Positions 8,930 through 62,664 of a stretch of 64,000 nucleotides of DNA are shown here, one piece after another. This DNA comes from Telopea speciosissima (taxonomy: Eukaryota; Streptophyta; Magnoliopsida; Proteales; Proteaceae). Where the stretch lies: NCBI RefSeq assembly GCF_018873765.1, contig NC_057919.1:66768984-66832983 (forward strand), written 5' to 3'. Under the pieces are notes generated by a model. The model worked only from the letters and a program-made list of their open reading frames with translations. It made no database searches and was not told the origin of the DNA. How positions within the stretch are numbered: the stretch's first letter is position 1; each line of letters starts with the position of its first letter. The position numbers and the translations under genes were made by a program.

Positions 8930-9454
8930 TGATTATAGTTTGATAGACACTCGACTAGGATGGTAATCGACCATTAGAGGTAGATACGGACCCATGTGGA
9001 GTATGATCTCATTATTCGTCCTTCGTGGGCACTGTAAAAAATGCCCCATTCAAATCTTCAATGTCGAGTTTGAATCCCTCTCTTTAATGTTTTCTCTAAT
9101 GAATAATAGAGAAAAAGAATGCTTCTTGGTCGTGTGGCTTATGTTGCTTCTTCGCCTAGACCTAGAAGCAAGTGAAAATACTGCATTGCCCCCATAAAAC
9201 AAAAAATGACACATATATTCATGTCTTTGCGTGTGTTCTCATTGGTATCTGCACTGGTAGAGAGGCTACATGCCTAGACAGCAATCTCTTGCCCGTAATA
9301 ATAACTTGTGATTTTCTGTGCTGGGCTTGAAATGGGAAGGGCTGATCAGACCCGACTGGACCGATCTGTTGACGACACTATTTAATAATCCGATTATGCC
9401 AAGTAGAACCAGTCTCGTCACCGACATCTCTCTTCTTCTTCGTGTCGACGAAAA
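8930..9454. other. Upstream region of the PPR gene
   Basis: No gene, repeat or clear TATA box is evident. The leader just before the PPR start is CT-rich (9425-9440), as is common in plant 5' UTRs. Confidence 0.3.
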
Positions 9455-11227
9455 ATGAACGTGTCTCTAAATCTTCATTCCCTAGCAAAACCAGTCCAAA
9501 GAGTTGTACTCGGCAACCAGCAACAACTACAATCCCCAGCCCAGCAAAGAGAAAAACGACAGTCGCCACAGAAGAAAACTGATGCCGCCATTTCGCTCCT
9601 GCAACTTTGTAAAAATAGCAAAGAACTTGTCCAGGTACACTCCCTCCTCATTAAAACCTCACTCATTCGAGAAAAACATGCATTTGGTCGCCTACTTTCC
9701 TTTTTCGCGGCCTCTTCCGAACCGGGTACTCTTGATTATGCCCAAAGGCTCTTTGACAATGTTGATTTTCCGAGGAATTCCTTCATCTACAACACCATGA
9801 TCAAAGCTTATCTGATTCGGGGTAATCCGAGGATCAGTTTTCTTGTCTACTACCAAATGTTATGCGAAGGCTCCATTTTTCCTGACGAGTTCACTTTTAC
9901 TTTCGTTTTTGCTGCCTGTTCTAAGTTGTCCTCTGTTTCCGAGGGTAAGCAGGCCCATGCTCAGATGGTAAAATACCCACTTCGGTTCGGAACCCAATCT
10001 TGGAATTCGTTGTTGGATTTCTATGCGAAGATAAGAGAGATGGGATCGTTGGGGCAACGATTGTTTGATCAAATTGAGGAACCCGATATCATTTCTTGGA
10101 ATTGTTTGCTTGATGGGTTTGTGAAATCAGGGGAGCTTGATGCTGCACGGGCGATTTTCGACGTAATGCCTCAGAGGGATACTGTTTCTTGGACCAGTAT
10201 GCTTGTGGGTTTTGCCAATGCGGGCTTGATGAGCGAAGCTTCTAAATTGTTTGATAATATGCCAGAGCGCAACTTGGTTTCTTGGAGTGCGATGATTAGT
10301 GCGTGTGTGCAAATGGGTCGATATAGGGAGGGGTTGGATCTTTTCAAACAGATGCAAGTTGCAGGCATCAAGACAGATAAGATCACGATGACGACATTGC
10401 TGTCTGCTTGTGCGAGGTTGGGAGCGCTTGATCAGGGTCAATGGTTTCATGCCTATATAGACAAATATATGATAGAAATCGATGCCCATCTATCTACTGC
10501 TTTAGTTGATATGTATGCTAAATGTGGGAAGATTGATATTGCTCTCAAAGTCTTTCGACGTTCAGGACATAAGAAGGTGTTTTTATGGAATGCCATTCTA
10601 GGAGGCCTTGCTATGCATTCGCGTGGGAGGGAAGCTGTTGAACTGCTATCGGAAATGTTAGAGGAAGGGATAAAGCCCAACCAGATCACCTTCCTTAGTG
10701 TTTTAGCAGCATGTAGCCACTCGGGTCTAGTTGATGATGGGTTGCGAATATTTCACATTATGATGAATGACCACAATATTAGGCTTACCATGGCGCACTA
10801 TGGATGCATAGTGGACCTTTACGCCCGTGCGGGCTTGTTGAATGATGCAAAACGGTTTATAGAAACCATGCCAATGGAAGCTGATGGAAGTGTATGGAGA
10901 GCGCTCCTTGGTGCTTGTAGACTTCATGGTAATGTCAATTTGGGAGAGCACATAGGGAGGATCTTACTTGAACTGGAGCCATCAAATGATGGAAATTACG
11001 TGCTTCTATCAGATATTTATGCAATTGGTAAGAGGTGGGAGGATGTTGGTAAGCTGCGAAGGGAGATGAAGGTGAGTGGGGTTCGGAAGATGCCCGGTTG
11101 CAGCTCCATTGAGTTAAATGGTGTCATCCATGAGTTTGTTGCAGGTGACGGTTCCCACCCAGAGAGTCTTAAGATTTATAGAATGTTGGATGAGATGGCC
11201 CCTTTACTAGGTGCCAGGCATGCATAG
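9455..11227 (+). CDS. PLS-class pentatricopeptide repeat protein, E subgroup
   Basis: This is an uninterrupted 590-residue, intronless ORF, the usual form of plant PPR genes. After about 45 residues of poorly conserved N-terminus (a candidate organelle targeting region), P, L and S type repeats run to about residue 500. Typical signatures are YNTMIKAY, SWNCLLDGFVKSG, SWTSMLVGFANAG, SALVDMYAKCG-like and LAACSHSGLVDDG. The C-terminal E/E+ region (VWRALLGACRLHGNV, NYVLLSDIYA, PGCSSIELNG, HEFVAGDGSHP) is present, and there is no DYW deaminase domain. Family members bind single-stranded RNA in plastids or mitochondria, and E-type members usually specify C-to-U editing sites. The target is unknown. 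The start is the first ATG, after a CT-rich leader. Confidence 0.95.
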   Translation: MNVSLNLHSLAKPVQRVVLGNQQQLQSPAQQREKRQSPQKKTDAAISLLQLCKNSKELVQVHSLLIKTSLIREKHAFGRLLSFFAASSEPGTLDYAQRLFDNVDFPRNSFIYNTMIKAYLIRGNPRISFLVYYQMLCEGSIFPDEFTFTFVFAACSKLSSVSEGKQAHAQMVKYPLRFGTQSWNSLLDFYAKIREMGSLGQRLFDQIEEPDIISWNCLLDGFVKSGELDAARAIFDVMPQRDTVSWTSMLVGFANAGLMSEASKLFDNMPERNLVSWSAMISACVQMGRYREGLDLFKQMQVAGIKTDKITMTTLLSACARLGALDQGQWFHAYIDKYMIEIDAHLSTALVDMYAKCGKIDIALKVFRRSGHKKVFLWNAILGGLAMHSRGREAVELLSEMLEEGIKPNQITFLSVLAACSHSGLVDDGLRIFHIMMNDHNIRLTMAHYGCIVDLYARAGLLNDAKRFIETMPMEADGSVWRALLGACRLHGNVNLGEHIGRILLELEPSNDGNYVLLSDIYAIGKRWEDVGKLRREMKVSGVRKMPGCSSIELNGVIHEFVAGDGSHPESLKIYRMLDEMAPLLGARHA

Positions 11228-16378: not shown

Positions 16379-17338
16379 TCAAGAAGTTTGCTCCTCAATA
16401 GCCAACTCTTCAATCATGTTGCCATGGTTGAGGGGATTAAAAGCTTGAATCTCAGAACACTTGCCAGGTAGAATTATAGGTCCAAGGCCTTGTTGATCCA
16501 ATGAAAGGACTGGAACTGGGTATTTGCGAGCGATCACCACCGAGTTTATCACTTCGTCGGTTGGATGATAAATCGATAACACCTCAAAGCCTCGAAGATC
16601 ACAGGGTTCAACAATTGGGTAGAGGAAAGCCCTGGCACCATGAGCACTCCTAAGCATGAGGAGAGCACCAGGAGCCATATGCTTGTTAAGGTGTTCGATG
16701 ATTTGGGTCTTCTCTTCCTTGTCCATACCCACAAGGGCTGCCAAGAAAACAACTTCATAGTCTCTAAGAGCAGTGGAAACCTCCATGATATCACTAGTAT
16801 GGAAGAACATACGTTGAGAGAGGTCAGGATCAGAGGAAATCAAATTAAGGGCAAGTGAATTGGCTGAAGCATCAATATCATAGTTATGGAAAGTGGTGGT
16901 TCGAAGGTGATTGGAAGCCAAGACTATGGAGGTGAGGGGAAGAGGACCAGAGCCGATGAAGGCAACACTAGTAGGGACATGGGTGAAGTGGTCGATGAGG
17001 AGAGTGAATTCAAGGTGACTGAGTTTGAGGTAATTGGAGTAGTAAGGGAAGAGTTTGATATGGTCAAGTGGGTTATGGAAAGAACCCAAAAGGGAAGAGA
17101 AATGAGATTCCAATAGACCCTCAGCTTCTCCACAGAGTCTAATGAGTTTGGACCGAATGTGTTGGACATGGTTGGAAAGCTTGGCGACATCGATTGGGAT
17201 TGGTGGGATACATGTGTGAACAAGCTGTGTGAAGAGCATGTCGACATGTTTTGATGGTTTCAGGGATTCGAGGTTTGAGATGCTTTGGTAGATCTCACAG
17301 ATCTTCTCTACAACTATGTCTTCATCTTGGCAACCCAT
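16379..17338 (-). CDS. NAS: Nicotianamine synthase
   Basis: This intact, intronless 319-residue ORF has the usual length and structure of plant NAS. The enzyme joins three S-adenosylmethionine aminocarboxypropyl groups into nicotianamine, a chelator of Fe, Zn and Cu used for phloem and cell-to-cell metal transport. Family hallmarks are visible: LFPYYSNYLKL (about residues 96-106), the SAM-binding VAFIGSGPLPLTS (125-137), NYDIDASAN (152-160), VFLAALVGMDKEEK (about 197-210) and RSAHGARAFLYPIVEP (about 231-246). The start is the first ATG after a short leader, and a TTAAATA TATA-like motif lies at about 17451-17460 on the minus strand. No frame lesion is seen. Which NAS clade it belongs to is not resolvable here. 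Confidence 0.96.
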   Translation of the reverse strand: MGCQDEDIVVEKICEIYQSISNLESLKPSKHVDMLFTQLVHTCIPPIPIDVAKLSNHVQHIRSKLIRLCGEAEGLLESHFSSLLGSFHNPLDHIKLFPYYSNYLKLSHLEFTLLIDHFTHVPTSVAFIGSGPLPLTSIVLASNHLRTTTFHNYDIDASANSLALNLISSDPDLSQRMFFHTSDIMEVSTALRDYEVVFLAALVGMDKEEKTQIIEHLNKHMAPGALLMLRSAHGARAFLYPIVEPCDLRGFEVLSIYHPTDEVINSVVIARKYPVPVLSLDQQGLGPIILPGKCSEIQAFNPLNHGNMIEELAIEEQTS

Positions 17339-17471
17339 GTCGACACTATGAACACACTATGAGGTTAGAAAGTCTTCTTCCCCTTCTCTGTTTTACTTTG
17401 AAAGGTAAACTAAACCAGGCAGGACACACTTCAATATCTCCAATGTGGGTCTTTATTTAAGAACACAAATA

Positions 17472-44511: not shown

Positions 44512-47500
44512 ATGGCTGCCGCGCCCACTGCCGTCCCGTCTTCTTCATCCTCATCCTCCGTCTCTCTATGGACTTATGATGTGTTTTTGAGTTTCAGAGG
44601 AGAGGATACACGGAAAAACTTCACAAGTCATCTCTATGCCGCCCTGGTCAGGAAAGGAATCGAAACATTCAAGGATGACGAGAAACTGCAAAGAGGAGAG
44701 CTGATCTCTGAAGCCCTCGAAAAGGCAATCAAGGAATCCAAGTTTTCCGTTATCATATTCTCAAGAAACTATGCTAATTCGAGATGGTGCCTACAAGAAC
44801 TCGCCTTGATTATGGAGGAATGCTGCAGGGAAAAGCATCATGTCCAAAAGGTTTTTCCAGTTTTCCTCACGGGCGTGGATCCTTTGGACGTACAGCACCA
44901 GAAGGGGAGCTTTGGAGAGCCTTTTAGAGAGCACGAAAAGCGCTTCAGCCCTGAGATGGTGGGAAGGTGGAGGTCAGCCCTAAGTGCAGCTGCTCAACTC
45001 TCCGGATCCGGATGGAGTTTAACAGATTTTGGGTAATTACTTCGTCGCAGAGCCTCTCTTTTATTTATTTATTTTTCTTTTATTAAAACATAATTTACTG
45101 AAAATTAATTCAAGTAGATTTGTCTAATGGGAACTGATTGGAGGAGGGTGGAGGGAGGGTCAAAAGGTAAGGAATGGAGTGGGACCGCGTGTACTGTAAG
45201 CAGCTTTACTTTCATCTGAATATCTAAATAAGAGAATTCTGTGAGCCATTTCGATTCAGAGTTCTAAACCTTTAGAATTTTCGGATCAAAGTTCTGCAAC
45301 TTTGCTTTAGATTGATGGCAACTCACACTGTTATCCCATCTTCTTCCGACTGTGGATGGAATTACGATGTAATATTGAATTACAAAGAAGATGAAGAAAC
45401 GGGAAACAATTTCGCAAGTAACCTCTACGCTTCCCTGGAGAGGGCCAATTTCAAAACATTTCTCAAGGACCACCATGAGAACTCGAAGAGAGGAGAGCAG
45501 ATGATCTCTGAGGAGCTCAAGAAAAGAATCAAGGAATCAAGATGCGCAATTATCATATTCTCTAGGAACTATGCTTCTTCAAGACGGTGCCTTGAAGAGC
45601 TTGCCTTGATAATGGATTGCAGGAAAAATCTTGGCCAAAGGGTAATTCCTGTTTTCCTCATGGGTGTGGAAGGATCGGATGTACGGCGTCAAAAGGGGAG
45701 CTTTGAAGAGCCTTTTCGCAAACACCAAGAGTGCTTCGAGGGAGAGGTGGTGGAAAGGTGGAGATCAGATTTGAAATTAGCAGGTGAACTCTGTGGGTTG
45801 AACTTGAAAGACTTTCCTAACGGGTAATTAATATTTACTTATTCCTCCTCCCTTAAGACATTTTTATTATTAATTTCTTCCGTAGTTGTTAGAGATGGAG
45901 AATCATGAATATTGTTATATAAATTGGATTCTCATGCATTTGAAGAGCTTAATTAGCTGAAAACGTTTTTAATCGAAATCTTTAGGGAGAATTGAGACAA
46001 TAGTGTTTTATGTTAAGAGGAGGAAGGAGGGTGGGGGTGAGGACTGTAATCTTTGGTTACTTCAGTTGTTTTGTCTTAATTTCAGCTATGTAATTTTGGC
46101 TAATTTTATCTGCTATTTTCGTTTCCTTTCTATTCTATTGTGGATTCCTATTGCAGGGATGAAGAGAAGTTGATTAAAAAGATAGTGAAGGACGTCTCCA
46201 ATGCGCTGGGTATGATCCCATTTGCCAAAAAAAGAAAGCGAGTGACAAGGCCGTCTTCTCCAAAGCCTGTGATAGAGATCCCAGCCGAGGCAATTATAAT
46301 CGAGAATCAGTCATCTACTCAACGCACACTACAACAGATGCTTGATTGCATAGGTGATCCTGATCCACGTTTTGGCATCATTGGAGTGTATGGTATGGGG
46401 GGAGTAGGTAAAACCACTCTTGCCAAAGAAGTAAACAATCACTTCGAAAAAGATTTGGCCAGAGGATTAAAGATACCTTTTGAGACTGTGATAATGGTCA
46501 CAGTGTCTGCCATTCCCGACATACGAAGTATCCAAACCAATATCAGTAAGCGCCTGGGATTACAAAATAATAGTGAGGCTGATGCATTGTTTGAAGTCCT
46601 AAGGAAGAAGAAATTTCTTCTAATTTTGGATGATGTGTGGTGTGAATTAAAGCTCGAGGATGTTGGAATCCCTTACCCTCCAAACGACAAAGGGAGCAAG
46701 ATCCTAGTGATTAGTCGGATTCAAGATACTTGCACTGATATGGGTGCTAGTAAAACAATAAAAGTGCATCCATTATCTAATGCCGAGTCGTGGAAGCTCT
46801 TCGTTAAAAAAGCTGGTGAACATGTTGCTGCTGATGATATAAAGCTTTTAGCTGAAAAAATTGTTGGAAGGTGTAAGGGTCTTCCTCTTGCAATTGTCAC
46901 TGTTGCTCGAGCAATGGCAAATCGACATGGAGTTCGGGTGTGGGAGAATGCCTTAAGGGAAATGAAGCAATCAGCAAAAGATCTCCGAGGTATGATAGAT
47001 AAAGTATTTGTTCCTTTGAAATTCAGTTTTGATAGTTTGGAGAATGATATGGTAAGGAGTCTATTTCTTTACTGTGCCTCTTTCCCTGAAGATTATAGCA
47101 TATTGAGGAACCCCTATTTCCCTGACCTAGAGGGAAACGAGTTTTTAAATTATTGCGTTGCAGAGGGATTAGCAGATAAATTAGGGAGTTTGAAAGCTGC
47201 TAGGGATAAAGTTGAGGATCTGATTGAGAGCTTGAAAATTGCTTGCATGTTGGAAGAAGGAGAGTCTAAAGGCAGTGTGAGGATGCATGATATGATGCGG
47301 GAGCTTGCACTTTGGATTGTTTCTTCAGATGCTAATAGTAGCCCCAATTTCTTGATAAGGAGTGGTGCATCAATTAAAGAGGCACCACAAGCTCACGAGT
47401 GGCTAGATGCAACAAGGATTTTGCTACTAGAGACCCGGATAGAAAAGTTGCCGGAGTTGGGAGAGACGTGTCGAAAACTAACAACTTTGTTGTTCACGCA

Positions 47501-48776
47501 GAATAAGAGCCACATTGTTATCCCCCCAACAAATTTCTTTCAACACATGGATCATCTTATCGTACTCGATCTATCTTACTCATTTTTGGAATCTCTCCCA
47601 GATTCCTTGTCATGTTTAGTGAAACTTCAGGTGCTTAGGCTACTGTATTGTAAAAGGTTGAGAACATTGCCTGCAGTGGGAATGCTTCGACAGCTCCAAA
47701 TTTTAGATTTATCTGGTTGTGATATGTTAGACCAGAAAATCCTCGGATCTGAATGCATGCGAGGTGTAAGTAATTTAAGATACTTAGATGTGCGATGGAG
47801 CAAGGTTTCTATTCTAGTTGGGGTAATTTCTTGTTTGCACAAATTGGAGGAATTGAGAGTGTGTGGTGCTGATAAAATAAAATGGAGGGTGAGTGTTGCT
47901 GAAGATGAAAAGTGGGATGAGAGTGGGTGTAGTGACGATCATCAACCCTCCATCATCGATGTGGGGGAGTTGTCCCAATTGACCTATTTAACATCTCTTT
48001 CCATTTCCTTGGAAGATATCATTATTTCTGATTGGTTCAAACCTTTGGCCAAGAAGATTATGTGGTTGAGTCTAACACGTTGCAGAGTCATTAAACAAGA
48101 AGCTCTAGAAGCTCTCAATGAAGCCCAAAATCTGCAAGACTTATGCATTGAGGATTGCTCAGGTGTGACAAGTGTGCGCATTGCTACTCTGCATACTACA
48201 TTGATAAACTGTGAAGACTTGGAGTTGGTGTGGGATCATGGAGCAGAGTTCTACCACCGAGATTCCTTTACAATATTAGCCCTAACAAGATTACCAAAAT
48301 TGAAAAGGATATGTGTTAGTCTCGCACCACCACCAAATTGCTTTGGCCAACTATCGTGGATAGAAATAGCCCAATGCAATAGCTTGAAGATGGTCTTTAT
48401 GAGGGGAATGCCACGCTTGTTCAACAACTTAACACACTTTGCTGTTACTGAATGTGATAGAATGGAAGTAATAATTGAAGCAGAGGAAGAAGATGTTAAT
48501 GGAGGAGGAGGAGGAGGAGGAGGAGTTGGAGGTGTCATCATCTCACCGTTCCCAAGTCTAAAGACTTTAAATCTACGTAACCTACCAGCATTACATGATG
48601 TGTGCAGCAGCAACCACATCTTGCATTGCCCCCTTATAGAAAGTGTGACGGTGAGAAACTGTCCGAGGTTAAAGGATGATCCTCTCAACATACGAAATGT
48701 GGATGGGTTACTTGTCATTGAGGAGGAAGAATGGATAGAAGGCAATAAGGTCATAGAGGAGGAATTGAATTCTTGA
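44512..48776 (+). CDS. NLR receptor: two TIR exons joined to a CNL-type NB-ARC-LRR (locus 1)
   Basis: Proposed exons are 44512-45032 (TIR-A), 45311-45823 (TIR-B) and 46157-48776. Every junction is phase 2, giving 1217 codons, or 1046 if TIR-B is skipped. TIR-A has YDVFLSFRGEDTRKNF and the putative NADase glutamate E96 in WCLQEL. The TNL-like linker DEEKLIKKIVKDVSNAL opens exon 3. The NB-ARC then has GMGGVGKTT (P-loop), FLLILDDVW (kinase 2 ending in W), GLPLA, FLYCASFPEDY and MHDMMRELALWI. These are CC-NLR (RPS2/RPS5-like) signatures, not TNL ones. LRRs follow to the end, with a run of eight glycines near 48500. A KKRKRV stretch (46227-46244) could be a nuclear signal. Exon 3 has no CC domain and no start codon of its own. 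Splicing is inferred. Confidence 0.85.
45311..45823 (+). CDS. Second, divergent TIR exon (TIR-B) of locus 1
   Basis: The exon is 513 bp, a multiple of three, with phase 2 at both ends, so it could be included or skipped without breaking the frame. It follows a tttgctttag acceptor and ends at CGG|gtaatt. It begins with ATGGCAACTCAC (45315), so it could also start its own transcript. TIR identity is clear from KESRCAIIIFSRNYASSR, CLEELALIM and RVIPVFLMGV. The usual SFRGED motif is replaced (ILNYKEDEE) and the W of WCLxEL is R. The glutamate is retained at residue 95. It may be a non-catalytic or oligomer-shaping TIR. Confidence 0.75.
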
Positions 48777-51287: not shown

Positions 51288-54200
51288 AGCGAAGTGGCCG
51301 CTCGCAGACGGTGAGCTTGTCCTTTAGTAGCTTGAACCATGGTGCTGATAAGCCTTTGGTGAGAATGTCTGCTACTTGATCTTAACTAGGCACAAACCGA
51401 ACACACAGTCGATTAGAGGCCACTTGTTCCCTGACAAAGTGGTAGTCTATCTCGATGTGTTTTGTGCATGCATGAAATAACGGATTGGATGCTAGATACG
51501 TTGCTCCAATGTTATCACAGTATAGAACTGGTGTTGTAATGTTAACACCTAGATCAAGCAGAAGCTGGCGAAGCCATATCAACTCAGCCGATGCATTTGC
51601 CACACCCTTATACTCTGATTCGGTTGATGACCGGGCAACCGTATGCTGCTTTTTTGAGCTCCAAGAAACCAAATTATTTCCAAGGTAGATGCAATACCCA
51701 CTTGTGGATCGTCTGTCATATGGGCAACCTGCCCAATCGGCATCCGTATAGGCATATAGTTGGACTGCTTTTGAAGGGCGAATTTGAATTCCCTGGCCAA
51801 CAGTGTCTTTTAGATAACGGAGAATTCTCTTGTCTGCGCCCCAATGCTCCACTGTGGGTGAATGCATAAACTGGCATACCCTATTGACAGAGAATGCAAT
51901 GTCTGGCCGAGTTAACGTCAGGTACTGCAATGCTCCCACAATACTTCGATACTGTGTGGGGTCTTCAAAGGCCGATCCAGTACCGGGTACGAGTGTTGTT
52001 GTAGAACTCGGGGTAGGCATCGGCTTAGCAGCAGCCATGTTTGCCTTCTGCAGGAGATCCAATGTGTATTTGGTCTGGGACAAATGTATCCCGTCGGAGG
52101 TCTTGAGTACCTCAACGCCTAGGAAGTAATGTAATTCCCCTAGGTCTTTAATAGCAAATTCATCGCCAAGCTTGTGGATGAGATCCTGCAGTTGGGAAGA
52201 GCTTGCTCCCGTTAGGATTATGTCATCAACATATACTAACAAATACATGGTATGATTCCCGATTGTGTGAACAAACAATGTCGAGTCTGATGATGATGGG
52301 CGAAACCCAATTGAAATTAGAAACGTGCCAAGCCTGTTGTTCCAAGCCCGTGGAGCCTGTTTAAGGCCGTAGAGAGCACGCTTGAGGTGGCACACATGAT
52401 TTGGATAGGCTGCATCAATGAACCCTTGGGGTTGTGTCATGTACACATTTTCCTGTAGGGAACCATTGAGAAATGCATTCTGAACGTCCAATTGGCGCAA
52501 GCTCCAGCCACGTGACACTGCAATAAAAAGGACAGTCCTGATTGTGGTCGGCTTTACCACAGGGCTGAACGTGTCAAAGTAATCAATCCCCTCACGCTGA
52601 TGAAACCCCTTGGCCACCAACCTTGCTTTGTAGCGTGCGACTATGCCATTTGAATTTCTCTTGATCCTATACACCCACTTGTTTCCAACCAAGTTCATGT
52701 TGGGTTGCTTGGGTACAAGCTGCCAAGTGCCATTTTTTAAAAGGGCATGTAATTCTTCACTCATGGCTTCTCTCCAGCGTTTGTCTTTGCTGGCCATGGT
52801 GTAAGAAGTTGGCTCAATGTCATTTGGGTGGGCTTGGGCTAGGTGTGCTGATGGGATAGGATACCGGGTAGCAAAAAGATTAAGTTTGGCTATTGGTTTA
52901 GTTACACCTGACCTAAGGCGAGTAACCATGTGGTGATGGGCTGGTTTAGGTGGTGGGTGGTTTGATTCGGTGATTTGTGGAATTGGTTCAGATAAGGTAA
53001 GAGGTGGTTCGGGTAAGGAGAGAAGTGGCTCGGCTATGGTGGGAATTAATTGAGTTGAAGGCTGAGTGATCAATGGTTCAGGTATTTGAGGACTAGATGG
53101 AGTGGGCCTTAATGGAATGGGCTGATTAATTGTTATTGATGAAGGAGTATGGGTCTGCACAATATTGTCATTAGTGACAATAAGTGGTAGGGAAGGCTTG
53201 GCTAATGGTGTAGGACTTGCACTTGGTTGCATGGCATAAGGGAAGCACCTCTCATCAAAGGTAACGTGACGTGAGATGTAGGTTCTGCCCATTGAAGGAT
53301 CGAAGCATTTATACCCCTTGTGATTGTTACTGTAGCCAATAAAGGTGCACTTGGTGGATCAAAATTGGAGCTTATGCCTTGTACGGCCGTAGCCAAGGAT
53401 AACAAGCGCAGCCATACGTTCTAAGCATTGTATAGTCAGGGTCCTTCTTGAACATCACTTGGTAGGGAGATTGATCATTTAGGACTAGCGTTGGCAGTCG
53501 ATTTATTAGATACATAGCTGTATCAAAGGCCGAGGCCCAAAACTTCATAGGAACAGAGGACCGTGCCATTAGAGTCAGACCCATCTCTACTATGTGTCTG
53601 TGCTTGCGCTCTGCCCTTCCATTCTGTTTAGACGTATGAGGGCAGGAATATTGATGTACTATTCCATTTGCTTTAAAAAACCTGTCAAATGATTGATATT
53701 CCCTTGCGCCATCTGATTGGAAGAATTTCAGTTTACGCTTAAAAATATTCTAGACATGAGCATAAAATTGCATAAATATTGATAATGCTTCAGATCGAGC
53801 TACAAGTGGGAAAATCCATGTGAAACGACTAAAATCATCAATGAATGAAATATAATAACGAAAGCCCTGAACTGAGGTAGTTGGTGCAGGTCCCCAGATG
53901 TCAGAGTGCACAAGTTCAAACGGTGCAGAAGCAATGGATTTATTGACGCCAAAGGGAAGTTTGTGAGCCTTTCCCATTTGGCATGAGACACAAACAGAAG
54001 AGGTGGTTGATGCTTGTAGTGGAAATGATGCCTGATGGAGCAAGTGGTTCATACACCTTGATGAAGGGTGACCTAGTCGATCATGCCAGATTGACTTTGT
54101 GACTCGTTCGCCAAGATGAACGGTGGGCAACGGTGGTGTTTGTGGAGATGAGGATGGATGTGGAAGCCGATAGAGCCCATCTTTAATCGGTCCTTTGAGC

Positions 54201-55345
54201 AGGGTGATCCCTATTTTTGGATCCCCGTTTCCAACTCGGACCAGATCTGAACCTGTGTAAGGATGACTAATATTCAGATTAGCCATATCATTTGTGATAT
54301 GATGGGTTGCACCCGAATCCGGGTACCAAGCTGCATCAAAGGATGTTGATGGAGCAGCTAACAAGGCTTCAGACTGGACCGAACTTTCTGTTGAAGATGA
54401 AGGTTGATAATTCTGATTAAACCTGCTGTAACAGGTTGCTGCAGTGTGATTGGTCCTATGGCAGATTTGACAGCGTGAACCAAATTGCACTTGGCTGTTG
54501 GTGTAACCTCTTCCACGACCTCCATTGTAATATGAATTTCTATTACCTCGACCTCTGTGGTAGTGGTTATAGTGACCACGGTTTCTTCCATTGTTGGAAG
54601 AGTTGTTGGCTGAACTCCGAGATATATTATTGACTTCTGCAGTTGGAAGATTGAGAGGAGCTGATCGTTGCTCTTTCAAGATTTCTTGGCTAAGGAGTAA
54701 GCCAGTGAAGACATCTAAAGGTAATGGTTCCAACCTAGTGGTGATGGAGGTGGCAAAAGACTCATACTCTGGGCCAAGCCCTTGAAGTATACTAAGTATA
54801 ATGTCTGATTTAGAGACTGGTTGGGCGGCAGCGGCAAGGTTATCAACCAAGCTTTTGATGTGTTGCAAGTACTCCACCATTGAAGAGGTGCCTTTCTTGA
54901 GTTGTAAAAGCTGATATTTCAGCTGCATCACTCTAGCTTGAGAGGTTGATGCGTAGGTCTTTTTTAGGGTACTCCACGTAGCATGGGCAGAAGTGAGGCC
55001 AACTATTTAGGCCAATGTACTCTCAGTCAAGGAGGAGATGATCCAGCGTAGTATTATCTGGTCTTGTCTTCTCCAAGCTAGGTAGGCTGGGTTAGGTGTG
55101 GAAGGATCTATGGAGGTAGATGTGGGAGAGGGAGATAGGGTTTGAGGTGGAATAGAATGACTACCATCAACATACCCGTAGAGATCATGGGCATGAAGAA
55201 GGGGTAGAAACTGAGACTTCCACAGGAGATAATTATTTTTGTCCAGTTTGACAAGGAGATGGGTGACGATATTGGTAGGAGAGATTAGGGCATTTGGAGC
55301 GGCGGTGGTTGCAGCGGTGGTGGTTGAGTTGTTGGAGTCACCCAT
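51288..55345 (-). pseudogene. Copia gag-pol polyprotein remnant
   Basis: In order on the minus strand: gag from the ATG at about 55345; the CCHC knuckle CQICHRTNHTAATC; protease core WYPDSGATHHI; the integrase region (WHDRLGHPS, SDIWGP); RT with VYVDDIILTG; RNase H with ARSSTESEYKGVA and CDNIGA. The frame is broken by stops near 55007 (TAA), 53750 (TAG), 53357 (TGA) and 51382 (TAA), and by a one-base shift near 53375. It cannot make a full polyprotein by itself. All four stops are one C-to-T change away from a sense codon. Confidence 0.93.
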
Positions 55346-55384
55346 TTGATCGTGTTGGACGTTAGTCACTGGCCGATGATACCA

Positions 55385-55637
55385 TATAAGAGATGGACTT
55401 TGGAATGAATTCTCCCCCTTATCGTTTCTTGTGATAAGGTGAGGTATTTATAATTGTATTTCAAATATTTACAACAGCTATCTCAGTTACATTGGATAAG
55501 AATCCCTTCTCATCTCTTCCTATCTTGTAGGAGTGAGTTTGGCTTGAGGAGTTGGAGTGTCTCTATCGGACTCTGACTTGATCAATGCTGTATTTGAATT
55601 GATCATGTTTGAATTCAAATTTGAATTATCTGTTACA
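55385..55637 (-). repeat. Copia 5' LTR
   Basis: This is the right copy on the plus map. The primer binding site lies just inside it and the TGGAC target duplication just outside. Confidence 0.95.
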
Positions 55638-56735
55638 TGGACCACTACAGACAAGGGTAAAATTTTAAATTGGATTTAGAGAGAAGAAATTATATTTCGT
55701 CTAATCATCTCTGCCTTTGCTTCATAGAAACACTAGTTGATCTTCGCCGAGGTAACTGGCTTGCCGATTCCACTTCCATAGCTCAAAGAATAGTCGATCG
55801 TCTCTATATCTGCAGGGCAATACCTGGTTTCTTCCTCGCTTCGACTTCACCTTAGAGTGGTTCCTCCCCTTTTCCTCATTTTCTCAAAGGTGACCCCGGG
55901 AAAAACAAAAAAATTTAGAAGGAAGTTGCCAAGAAGGCAACAAAAAGAAAGAATACCCCCACCCATATATAACTCCACTCCACTCCAAGTAGGAGATTGG
56001 CTTTCTCCCAATCTTTCTCAATTCTCAACTTTCACACTTTCTTCACAGCAAAGTTCTGCTACTCTCTGTTTCAGATTGATGGCTACCATGCCCACTGTCG
56101 TCCCGTCTGCTTCATCCTCCTCTGGATGGACTTACGATGTGTTCTTGAGTTTCAGAGGAGAAGACACCCGCAAAAACTTTACAAGTCACCTTTATGCCGC
56201 CCTGGTTAGGAAAGGAATCAAAACATTCAAGGATGATAAGGAAATAAAAATAGGAGAGGTGATCTCTGAAGCACTCCAAAAGGCAATCAAGGAATCAAGG
56301 TCTTTCATTATCATATTCTCGAGGAACTATGCTGATTCGCATTGGTGCCTAGATGAACTCGCCTTGATTATGGAAGAATCTCATGGCCCAAAGGTTTTTC
56401 CAGTTTTCCTGGAGGGCGTCGATCCATTGGAAGTACAGGACCAGACGGGAAGCTTTGGAGATGCTTTTGGGGAGCTTGCAAAGGACTGCGACGGAGAGAC
56501 GGTAAAAAGGTGGAGGTCAGCCCTTAGAGCGTGCTGCTCAACTCTCCGGATCCGGATGGTGCTTAAAAGATTTTTGGTAATTACTTTCCTCTCGCTATGT
56601 ATGTGTGTTTTTGTTTTTTTTTTAAATAAAACAGATTTTATTGAAAATCAATTCTAGTAGATTTGCAAATCCACCAACCTGCCTACTTTAATTTTTTTTC
56701 GCCAAACAAAAAAAAGTGACAGAACCAACTGACGC

Positions 56736-59057: not shown

Positions 59058-59575
59058 ATGGCAACCCACACTAAGGTTATCCCGTCCTCTTCCACCTCTG
59101 CTGGATGGAATTACGATGCAATATTGATTTACGGAGGAAGAAGAAAAAGGGAACATTAATTTCGTAAGTAAGCTCTACGCTTCCCTGGAGAGGGCCAATA
59201 TCAAAACATTCAAGGACAATGATGAGAACGCGAAAAGAGGAAGAGGAAGAGGAGGAGAGCAGATGATCTCTCCGACGATCGAGTAAGGAATCAAAGAATC
59301 AAGATGCGCAATTATCATATTCTCGAGTAAATACGATGCCTTGAAGAGCTTGTCTTGATGATGGATTGCAGGGAAAAGCAGGTTTGCCAAAGGCTAATTC
59401 CTGTTTTCCTCATGGGTGTCGAACCTTCGGACGTAAGGCATCAAAGGGGGAGCTTTGAGGAGCCCTTTCGCCAGCATCAACAGTGTTTCCAACCAGAGGT
59501 GGTGGAAAGGTGGAGGTAACTTCTCAAAAAGGCAGGTGAACTCAGTGGGTTGGTATTGAATAACTTTCGGAACCG
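59058..59575 (+). pseudogene. TIR-B relic of locus 2
   Basis: It aligns with TIR-B of locus 1 from ATGGCAACCCAC to a CCGG|gtaatt donor-like end. Recognisable pieces in different frames include SAGWNYDAILIYG, RANIKTFK and VFLMGVEPSDVRHQ. Several frameshifts and stops are present, including TAA and TGA codons near 59155, 59285 and 59517. Confidence 0.8.
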
Positions 59576-62500
59576 GTAATTACTTATTCCTTCCTTAATT
59601 ACAAAGATATATGTTTTTTTGATAGAATCCGTAGTTGTTAGTTGTTAGAGATGGAGAATGAATGATTATATAAATAAATTGATATAATTAAGTTGGCTTC
59701 AGAGATCATTCGTGGAAGAGCTTAGCTGAAAACATACAATTTAAAAGTCGAAATCTTTAGGGAGAGAGAGAGAGAGAATTGATAGAATAGCGTTTTTGTT
59801 AAGAGGGAGGGGAGCCGTAGGATTTCATGTTAGGATGACCAGCTAATAGCTATATATCAAGATTATTTAGGCCTTTTCTAGCTGCCGTTTGGATCAGTTG
59901 GTGAGTCCGGTCCCAGTATTTTGGTGTCCTTTTTCTATTCTATTATTTATATATATATATATATATATTGAATGTGTGTCTTTCTATTGCAGGGATGAAG
60001 CGAAGTTGATTGCACAGATAGTGGAAGACGTCTCGGGTGGGCTGAGTGAGATCCTTTCTCCAAACCCTGTGATAGAGATCCCATCGGAGCCAATTAAAAT
60101 TGAGAACCAGCCATCTACTAAATCCGCGCTGCTACAGATGCTTGATTGCATAGGTGATCCACGTTTTAGCATAATTGGAGTATATGGTATGGGGGGAGTG
60201 GGTAAAACCACTCTCGCCAAACTAGTAATTAAACAATCACTACTTGGAAAAAGATTTGGCCAGAGGAGTAAAGATATCTTTTGAGACTGTGATAATGGTT
60301 ACAGTGTCTGCCACTCCGAATTTGAGAAGTATCCAAGACAGTATCAGTAAGTGCCTTGGATTACCAGATAATAGTGGGGCTGATGCATTGTTTAAAGCCC
60401 TAATGAAGAAGAAATTTCTTTTAATTTTTGATGATGTTTGGTGCAAATTAAAGCTCATGGATGTTGGAATCCCTCACCCAGTTCTAAACAACAAAGGAAG
60501 CAAGATTCTTATAATCAGTCGGATTCAAGATATCTGCACTGATATGGATGCTAGAAAAACAATAAAAGTAGAGCCATTATCTGATGCCGAATCATGGGAG
60601 CTCTTTGTTGATATAGCTGGCGAACATGTTGCTGCCAATGATATAAAGCGCTTTGCTGAAAAAATTGTTGGAAGGTGTAAGGGGCTTCCCCTTGCAATTG
60701 TCATTGTTGCTCACGCAATGGCAAATCGACATGGAGTTGGGTTGTGGGAGAATGCCTTGTGGGAAATGGAGCTCTCAGCCACTGAGATTCGAGGTATGAA
60801 GGAAGAAGTATTTGTTCCTTTAAAATTCAGTTTTGATAGATTGGAGAATGATATGCTTAGGAGTCTATTTCTTTATTGTGCGTGTTTCTGTGAAGACTAT
60901 AATTTTGAAATTGGGGGATACGAGTTGTTAGATTATTGCATTGGAAAAGGATTAGTAGATAAATTAGGGAGTTTGAAAGCTGCTAGAAATAAAGTCGAGG
61001 ATCTAATTGAGAGCTTGAAAATTGCTTGCATGTTGGAAGATGGAGATCATAAAAGTAGTACTGTAAAGATGCATGATATGATGCGAGAGCTTGCATTGTG
61101 GATTACATCTTCAGAGTACACTGATAATAGCAGCCTCAACAAGTTCTTGATAAGGACTGGTGAATCAGTGATAGATACACCACAAGCTCATGAGTGGTCA
61201 CACGCAACAACGATTTCCCTAATAAATACCCGAATAGAGGAGTTGTCGGAGTTAGGAGAGAGGTGCCAAAAACCTAACCACTTTGCTATTCAAGGACAAT
61301 TTTCCAAATCTGAGGAACAAAATTCACAGTGTTATTCCCTCAACAAATTTCTTTGAATACATGGATCATCTTAGTGTACCTGATCTTTCCAATACATGGA
61401 TAATGAAATATCTCCTAGATTCTTTATCACGTTTGGTGAATCTTTGGGTGCTTAGGTTACAGATTTGTTCAAGGTTAAGAGAATTGCCTGTACTGGGAAT
61501 GCTCAGACGGCTACAAGTTTAGTTCTGTTTTATTGTGAAATGTTAGATCAACAAATCCTCGGATCTGAATGTGTGGAAGGTTTAAGTAATTTGAGATACT
61601 TGAACCCGGAAGGTACCAATGTTTCTATTCCAATGGGGATAATTTCTTGTTTGCACAAATTGGAGGAATTGAAATTGAGTCGAGCAAAAAAAATAAATTG
61701 GAGGGTGAGTACTGATCGTAAGGGACAAAGGGATGAGCAGGAGAGAAGTGGTGGGTGTAGTAGTAGTATTGATGACTACTCCATCAGTATGATTGATGTG
61801 GGGGAGTTGTTCCACTTGACCAATTTAACATCTTTTTCCATTTCCTTCCAAGATATCATTATATTTGATTGGTTCAAACCTATGGCCAAGTAGATTGTGG
61901 GATTGGAGCTGAGACGTTGCAGAGTAGTAAGACAAGACGCTCTACAAGCTCTGATCAATGAATCTCAAAATCTACAGTTCTTAACTATTGAGGATTGCCA
62001 GGGTGTGACATGTGGGCGCATTTGTGATACCGGTACTAAATTAATAAATTGTGAAGACTTGGAGGAGGTGATGGATGGATTAGTGGTCGACCACCAATGT
62101 CCCAATGGATTGTTAATACTAATAGAATTGCCAAAATTGAAGAAGATATGTGTTGGTCTCGCACCAATAAATTGCTTTAATCAACTAATGTTGATAGATA
62201 TAGAGCGATGCCATAGCTTGAAGATGGTCTTCACGAAGGAAATGCGACGACACTCGTTCAAGTACTTGTACAGTATTCTTGTTAGTGATTGCGAGAGAAT
62301 GGATGTAATAATTGAAGCAGATGATGATGATGCTAAGGAAGAAGAAGTTGGGGAGTTGTTGGAAGAGAATAATAATAATATTAATGGTGAAGTCATCTCA
62401 CTTTTTCCAAAACTCAGATTTTTCATTCTAGTAAATCTACCAACACTAGCAGAGGTGTGCACCAATCACATTTTGCATTGCCCCCTTATCAATGAAATGA

Positions 62501-62664
62501 AGGTGAGAAACTGTCCGAGGATAAACAAGGATCCTCTCCCCATACAAAATACGGATGGTTTACTTGTCATCATCGAGGGGGAAGAAATGTGGAAAGAAGG
62601 GAGCAATAATAAGGTCGTGAAGAAAAGGAAATTTAAGGAAATTCAACCTGGACCCTAATCTTCT

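Follow-up and report, generated by a model that had tools for sequence, protein, structure and literature searches.

The DNA considered here is a 64,000-nucleotide stretch of the Telopea speciosissima genome (the window; 66768984–66832983 of contig NC_057919.1, hereafter C4), and its main feature of interest is a predicted gene at 44512–48776 (locus 1) for a nucleotide-binding leucine-rich repeat receptor (NLR) that appears to join parts of two receptor classes, the TIR-type NLRs (TNLs) and those with an N-terminal coiled-coil (CC) domain (CNLs). From the 5' end, locus 1 consists of a TIR-A exon, a TIR-B exon, and a third exon specifying a linker, an NB-ARC domain and leucine-rich repeats (LRRs), with all frames open (Table 1). 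Pfam E-values are 8e-47 and 4e-36 for the two TIR domains, 3e-49 for NB-ARC and 6e-24 for LRR_RPS2. TIR-A carries the motifs FLSFRGEDTR and SRWCLQEL, the latter including the catalytic Glu, and its closest solved chains are grape RPV1 and RUN1. TIR-B is degenerate, with YKEDEETG in place of FRGEDTR and R for the W of SRWC, and retains the catalytic Glu. The third exon begins at the acceptor TTGCAG/GGATGAAGAG (the slash marks the splice junction), which is in phase 2 like both TIR donors, and the original observation of TIR exons joined in matching phase to an NB-ARC with a kinase-2 motif ending in W and the RNBS-D sequence FLYCASFPEDY is borne out. The predicted splices A-NB, B-NB and A-B-NB are all open, with products of 1046, 1042 and 1217 aa, respectively; the last would place two TIRs in one protein, yet the first two are equally open. 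A possible in-frame acceptor for TIR-B, TTTAG/A after 45310 (in TTTAG/ATTG), lies directly 5' of the TIR-B ATG. In vivo, the TIR exons are presumably spliced to the NB exon.

At the level of the gene model, locus 1 thus has a TIR domain with a catalytic Glu and a TIR-NB linker, as TNLs do. Its NB-ARC is not of the TNL type: TNL domains fall in the TNL clade and have a kinase-2 ending in D or N, and that of locus 1 reads LLILDDVW and is placed elsewhere in the tree. Compared with solved chains, the third exon scores 217 bits against 9h2l, and 91 against ZAR1, 87 against MLA13, 64 against Roq1 and 56 against RPP1. The PDB title of 9h2l is only 'NB-ARC domain-containing protein', and it is presumably an NLR of the G10 type. 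A phylogeny, proposed earlier as a check on the class of the NB-ARC, was calculated from 48 rows (37 of the 69 collected loci, locus 1 and 10 solved chains), omitting same-place duplicates, fragments, and any locus whose core has a stop or lacks a P-loop match. Locus 1 falls among the CNLs and not inside the TNLs, the placement that would have refuted the first reading. Together with locus 3, an intact copy described below, it is nested in a CC-bearing family of the same genome (six rows, support 100/100; five rows, 95/89), and both lie in a 17-row clade that holds 9h2l (100/99), apart from the five TNLs, which form a separate clade (100/99). The core described at first as CNL-type can therefore be refined: it appears to be specifically of the G10 (RPS2/RPS5) type, with the exchange having apparently replaced its N-terminal domain. 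Of the 11 Pfam families that P0003 hits at E ≤ 0.01, none is a C-JID domain; this domain is not present in every TNL.

The close relatives of locus 1 indicate what the replaced part may have been. When the third exon was searched against the 822.9-Mb assembly, which has 1287 contigs including 11 large ones, 62 matches were obtained; since 51 out of 669 candidates were scored, the family counts are lower bounds. When pieces of the same gene were merged (C4:67702940 and C4:67706264 presumably being one interrupted gene), there were at least 15 family places, each at least 55% identical to the third exon. In at least nine of the 15, the NB-ARC is immediately preceded, in frame at the junction, by a G10-type N-terminal domain that reads MDFVGPF...NCWSRYKLSK... 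and joins the NB exon at VARPPSPK or a near form; among these nine, the C6 place shows just the domain's second part, and in L039, L041 and L054 the domain is interrupted by a stop or a shift of frame. Three places, loci 1, 2 and 3 (L033), have the TNL linker and TIR exons instead, and another three (L044, L048 and L052) could not be read upstream. The CC-bearing paralogues are mostly 66–73% identical to locus 1, and their N-terminal domain, which ends just where the TIR-type linker ends, was not found in the window, where the best E is 8.3, or at locus 3, where it is 7.2 over 10 kb. It matches the N-termini of other CNLs in the same tree clade (for instance L001, L004, L005 and L007; E from 2.6e-9 to 5e-13). 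LRR_RPS2 (PF23247) is also found at L032, L034 and locus 3.

The TNL-style linker that had been proposed to precede the CNL-type core holds up well on comparison. Of its 17 residues, DEEKLIKKIVKDVSNAL, 7–9 are identical to each of four TNL linkers (Roq1, RPP1, ADR2 and L067), against 0–3 in the CC-bearing paralogues (three offsets tried by hand). A similar motif, GYEAELIEKIVEEIWxK, has been reported for 98% of the TN genes of apple (PMC4169499; sources given by PMC number are represented throughout by their accessible parts). By tblastn, NB exons of the TIR type are homologous to those of the CC type from residue 29–30 of the third exon (base 46242) onwards, and since the first 17 residues are TNL linker, the exchange can be placed within the 33 bases between (Table 1). 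Because the TIR-bearing loci nest within a CC-bearing family, the CC form is the older one. The suggestion of an old recombination that put a TIR module on a CNL core is accordingly upheld for the module and the core and not for the age: the closest relatives are paralogues of this very genome that bear a CC domain, so that, measured against the age of the NLR classes, the swap is not old.

As a separate observation, the KKRKR at 46227–46241 of locus 1 (FAKKRKRV) resembles a basic nuclear localisation signal; the matching stretches of loci 2 and 3 are without it.

Table 1. Features of locus 1, its copies at loci 2 and 3, and other features of the window.
Feature	Position	Strand	Remarks
Candidate TATA box TATAAA	44273–44278	+	239 bases before TIR-A ATG
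TIR-A exon	44512–45032	+	ATG at 44512; donor GG/GTAATT, phase 2
TIR-B exon	45311–45823	+	ATG at 45315; donor GG/GTAATT, phase 2
Third exon (linker, NB-ARC, LRR)	46157–48776	+	acceptor TTGCAG/G; stop 48774–48776
TNL-type linker DEEKLIKKIVKDVSNAL	46158–46208	+	start of exon after TIR intron
Putative swap breakpoint interval	46209–46241	+	33 bases; codes for GMIPFAKKRKR in locus 1
NB-ARC domain	46332–47033	+	Pfam PF00931
Kinase-2 LLILDDVW, non-TNL type	46617–46640	+	motif in open frame
MHD stretch MHDMMRELALWI	47283–47318	+	motif in open frame
RPS2-type LRR	48282–48674	+	PF23247, E = 6e-24
Locus 2 TIR-A	56079–56575	+	frame diverges from locus 1 near end
Locus 2 TIR-B	59058–59577	+	frame broken
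Locus 2 linker-NB-LRR exon	59993–62658	+	acceptor TTGCAG/GGATGAAG; frame broken at several places
Locus 3 (NB exon L033, TIR L061)	C4:63.9 Mb		outside the window, 2.9 Mb away; intact
Ty1/copia-like frames	51382–55447	−	gag, integrase and reverse transcriptase, by eye; between loci 1 and 2
Nicotianamine synthase	16379–17356	−	open frame; Pfam NAS, E = 1e-132
PPR protein	9407–11227	+	E and E+ motifs; one open frame

The arrangement recurs outside locus 1. That locus 2 has the same arrangement, cited originally against a chance neighbourhood, is correct as to the order of TIR-A, TIR-B and NB exons, but locus 2 is decayed; the intact locus 3 can now be added. In the 4.5 kb read above L033, locus 3 has a single TIR exon with a phase-2 donor and an intron of about 2.2 kb, giving an open predicted product of 1047 aa, with the same acceptor and linker as locus 1 and both NB-ARC and LRR_RPS2 present. 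Acceptor and phase are identical in three of three linker-bearing NB exons. A genome search for TIR domains (150 matches scored, of 267 candidates, again a lower bound) returned at least four matches on C4 among those scored, all four adjoining linker-bearing NB exons, which argues for more than a chance neighbourhood; one further fragment on C4, at 31.5 Mb and interrupted by stops, came up only with TIR-A as the query. TIR matches are present in 13 of 71 collected loci, namely L031 and L036 in the window, L061 at locus 3, eight loci supplied by the TIR search, and two on C1 at 20.87 Mb, L070 and L071, which form a TIR-A/TIR-B tandem of the same clade. The C1 tandem can be regarded as a head module copied on its own to another place.

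All seven of these TIR copies (loci 1–3 and C1) group in one clade (100/100), apart from the five TNL TIRs sampled. In both halves of the domain, A copies separate from B copies across loci 1, 2 and C1, so that the A/B pair predates the divergence of these loci. Over its 5' half, the locus 3 TIR belongs with A (100/100), but over its 3' half with B (100/99), and it looks like the product of an A/B crossover, with the promoter side of A and the donor and intron of B; its use of B's donor implies that the TIR-B donor serves the NB exon. For locus 1 versus locus 3, dN/dS is 0.26 (0.15–0.43) for TIR-A against the locus 3 TIR, 0.34 (0.21–0.52) for TIR-B against the same TIR, 0.39 (0.27–0.57) for the NB-ARC and 0.68 (0.52–0.87) for the LRR. 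TIR and NB-ARC thus evolve under constraint (0.26–0.39).

Altogether, we think it likely that locus 1 is a chimeric NLR, with a TIR head and TNL linker on a G10-type core, that signals as a TIR NADase through EDS1. Its ancestors would have been NLRs with the G10-type domain directly before the NB-ARC, and recombination would have swapped this domain for the 5' part of a TNL gene, comprising the promoter side, the TIR exon, the first intron and, at the start of the exon that follows, the ~17 codons specifying the TIR-NB linker. A tandem duplication of the TIR exon could then have given TIR-A and TIR-B, with locus 3 reverting to a single TIR by the A/B crossover. In the receptor, the RPS2-type LRR may detect an effector or a guarded host protein, upon which the G10-type NB-ARC would exchange nucleotide and oligomerise, packing the TIR heads so that TIR-A (at locus 1) or the single TIR (at locus 3) could cleave NAD+, the products presumably acting via EDS1-family complexes and helper NLRs. 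For TIR-B, a part in an interface is more likely than enzyme activity. The genome has nine EDS1_EP matches, six of them near full length and without stops, and also RPW8 domains, and the TIR pathway therefore appears to be available.

Several points weigh against this interpretation. The number of subunits in the oligomer and its chemistry would be carried over by analogy from relatives, and the 26 RPW8 matches (25 above the cut-off) are a count of domains and not an assignment of helper NLRs. One of the three TIR-bearing copies, locus 2, is decayed, and the C1 tandem, which keeps part of the TIR-B intron, has a stop in each TIR and is not followed by an NB exon over the 2.9 kb read. The name G10 for the clade depends on 9h2l, presumably of that type, and on the RPS2-type LRR, the tree having no RPS2 or RPS5 rows. 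For the paralogues' N-terminal domain, PDB gave no match at E ≤ 0.5 and Pfam no family, and we take it to be of the G10 type from its position, its clade and a presumed likeness; according to RefPlantNLR, no InterPro signature for CCG10 existed (PMC8559963). In the NB-ARC tree, loci 1 and 3 pair at only 78/97. A DNA tree to which locus 2 was added unites the three TIR-bearing copies over the NB-ARC half at only 92/96 (unrooted) and does not group them over the LRR half, so that LRRs have probably been exchanged between TIR-type and CC-type genes. The histories of the parts also differ: between loci 1 and 3, dS is 0.67 (0.40–1.10) for the A-like 5' half of the TIR (44512–44800 and L061), against 0.33 (0.15–0.58) for the B-like 3' half, 0.35 for the whole NB exon and 0.22 for the NB-ARC, which leaves the 5' half out of line and suggests gene conversion among the NB exons or unequal ages of the parts.

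The gene could be chimeric with its TIR serving as a recognition or regulatory domain (a decoy, or part of a paired sensor) while a partner NLR does the signalling. TIR-B, which is without FRGEDTR and the conserved W, would suit such a role, and known sensor-type TNLs without the catalytic Glu depend on a partner (PMC7282519), but TIR-A and the locus 3 TIR retain FRGEDTR, SRWC and a Glu equivalent to RUN1 E100, termed the putative catalytic Glu in the same source, and their dN/dS is well under 1; we consider this unlikely. That two genes lie side by side, a TIR-only gene (A, or A and B) and, by chance, an N-terminally truncated CNL, is quite unlikely in our estimation. Retention of the TIR-A intron would lead immediately to a stop, each TIR has its own ATG, and the C1 TIRs are without an NB exon in the stretch read, all of which fit this arrangement, but the NB exon opens with a TNL linker, a feature missing from the CC-bearing paralogues, the acceptor and phase are alike in all three linker-bearing NB exons, and locus 3 is an intact single-TIR copy. 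The distribution of TATAWA, a candidate promoter motif, also bears on this: at loci 1 and 2 it lies no more than 300 bases before TIR-A, and at locus 3 likewise before the single TIR (its chance rate was not computed), and none occurs in the 281–300 bases 5' of TIR-B at loci 1 and 2, which speaks against two neighbouring genes, nor upstream of the C1 TIR copies within the only 113 and 94 bases inspected. A similarly small chance is given to a functionless by-product of recombination that is decaying as locus 2 and the C1 locus have done, since loci 1 and 3 remain open over ~1040–1220 codons despite an NB-exon dS of 0.35, and selection is evident in both TIR and NB-ARC (dN/dS well under 1). The executor of CNLs is their N-terminal CC, and because this channel-forming domain is absent here a direct Ca2+ channel is unlikely. 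Of 24 G10 CC domains examined in pepper, 17 caused cell death by themselves (PMC7756659), and it is this output module that the present gene has lost. A CNL-type resistosome admitting Ca2+ through its ring, with the TIR merely attached, is accordingly very improbable, even though the NB-ARC and LRR are G10-type and relatives are reported as Ca2+-influx-inducing octamers (PMC12856790).

The proposed chimeric receptor with a TIR NADase head resembles several known systems in part. Like the CC-G10 NLRs (Arabidopsis RPS2 and RPS5, wheat WAI3), it has a kinase-2 ending in W, an RPS2-type LRR and an NB-ARC in the 9h2l clade, and differs from them in the TIR and TNL linker that replace the N-terminal G10-type domain and in an extra intron. 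Like canonical TNLs (Roq1, RPP1, RUN1/RPV1 and, in this genome, L062, L066 and L067), it has a TIR exon, a linker opening the next exon and the catalytic Glu, whereas its NB-ARC and LRR lie outside the TNL class. At the level of the gene model, tandem TIR domains are shared with the cotton dual-TIR protein GhRVD1 (PMC10170703) and with TTNL genes (PMC3782705), but GhRVD1 comes from a TNL cluster, and here TIR-B is degenerate and the core non-TNL. The TCNLs of apple and blueberry, in which a TIR is annotated with a CC feature before the NBS-LRR, were also considered. The apple TCNL consensus carries the TNL motifs LVIVDNVD and FLDISCFF (PMC4169499) and the sole blueberry TCNL falls in the TNL clade (PMC5821885); since these published examples are TNL-type, and the CC of the present family is absent from locus 1 (a general coiled-coil predictor was not run) and its NB-ARC is non-TNL, identity with TCNLs was rejected. 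The 'TIR-CNL' in the abstract of a Trifolium paper (PMC10138078) was set aside as an apparent slip for TIR-NLR, the term of its text. TNL/CNL chimaeras have been said to 'appear to be rare', the TCNLs of grape and poplar being excepted as a 'possible mixture' (PMC3782705), and according to one review the N-terminal classes of plant NLRs track NB-ARC phylogeny and hence have a deep origin (PMC10561179). The accessible parts of a magnoliid NLR paper (PMC8724549), of NLRexpress (PMC9519389) and of 'Alien domains' (PMC7145615) contain no TIR on a CNL core, and the literature searched, which included few subscription papers, yielded no account of a TIR joined to a G10 core.

The stoichiometry of such a receptor would be informative, because WAI3 and RPS2 are reported to form octamers and TNLs tetramers (PMC12856790). 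It could be speculated that a single exchange re-headed a Ca2+-channel NLR as an NAD+-cleaving one, and that the G10 NB-ARC, whose relatives form octamers, drives a TIR assembly of a size not known from the tetrameric TNLs, in which each subunit could have as many as two TIRs, a catalytic one and a scaffold; this is offered tentatively, as possible but rather doubtful. If true, the head alone would set the output of an NLR, and TIR activation would need no tetrameric NB-ARC ring. The chimaera makes both matters open to experiment, namely whether the N-terminal domain alone decides between channel and NADase/EDS1 output, and whether TIRs are activated only on the tetrameric TNL ring or also on an octameric G10-type ring. 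CC-bearing sister genes persist in the same genome, so that the states before and after the exchange can be compared gene by gene.

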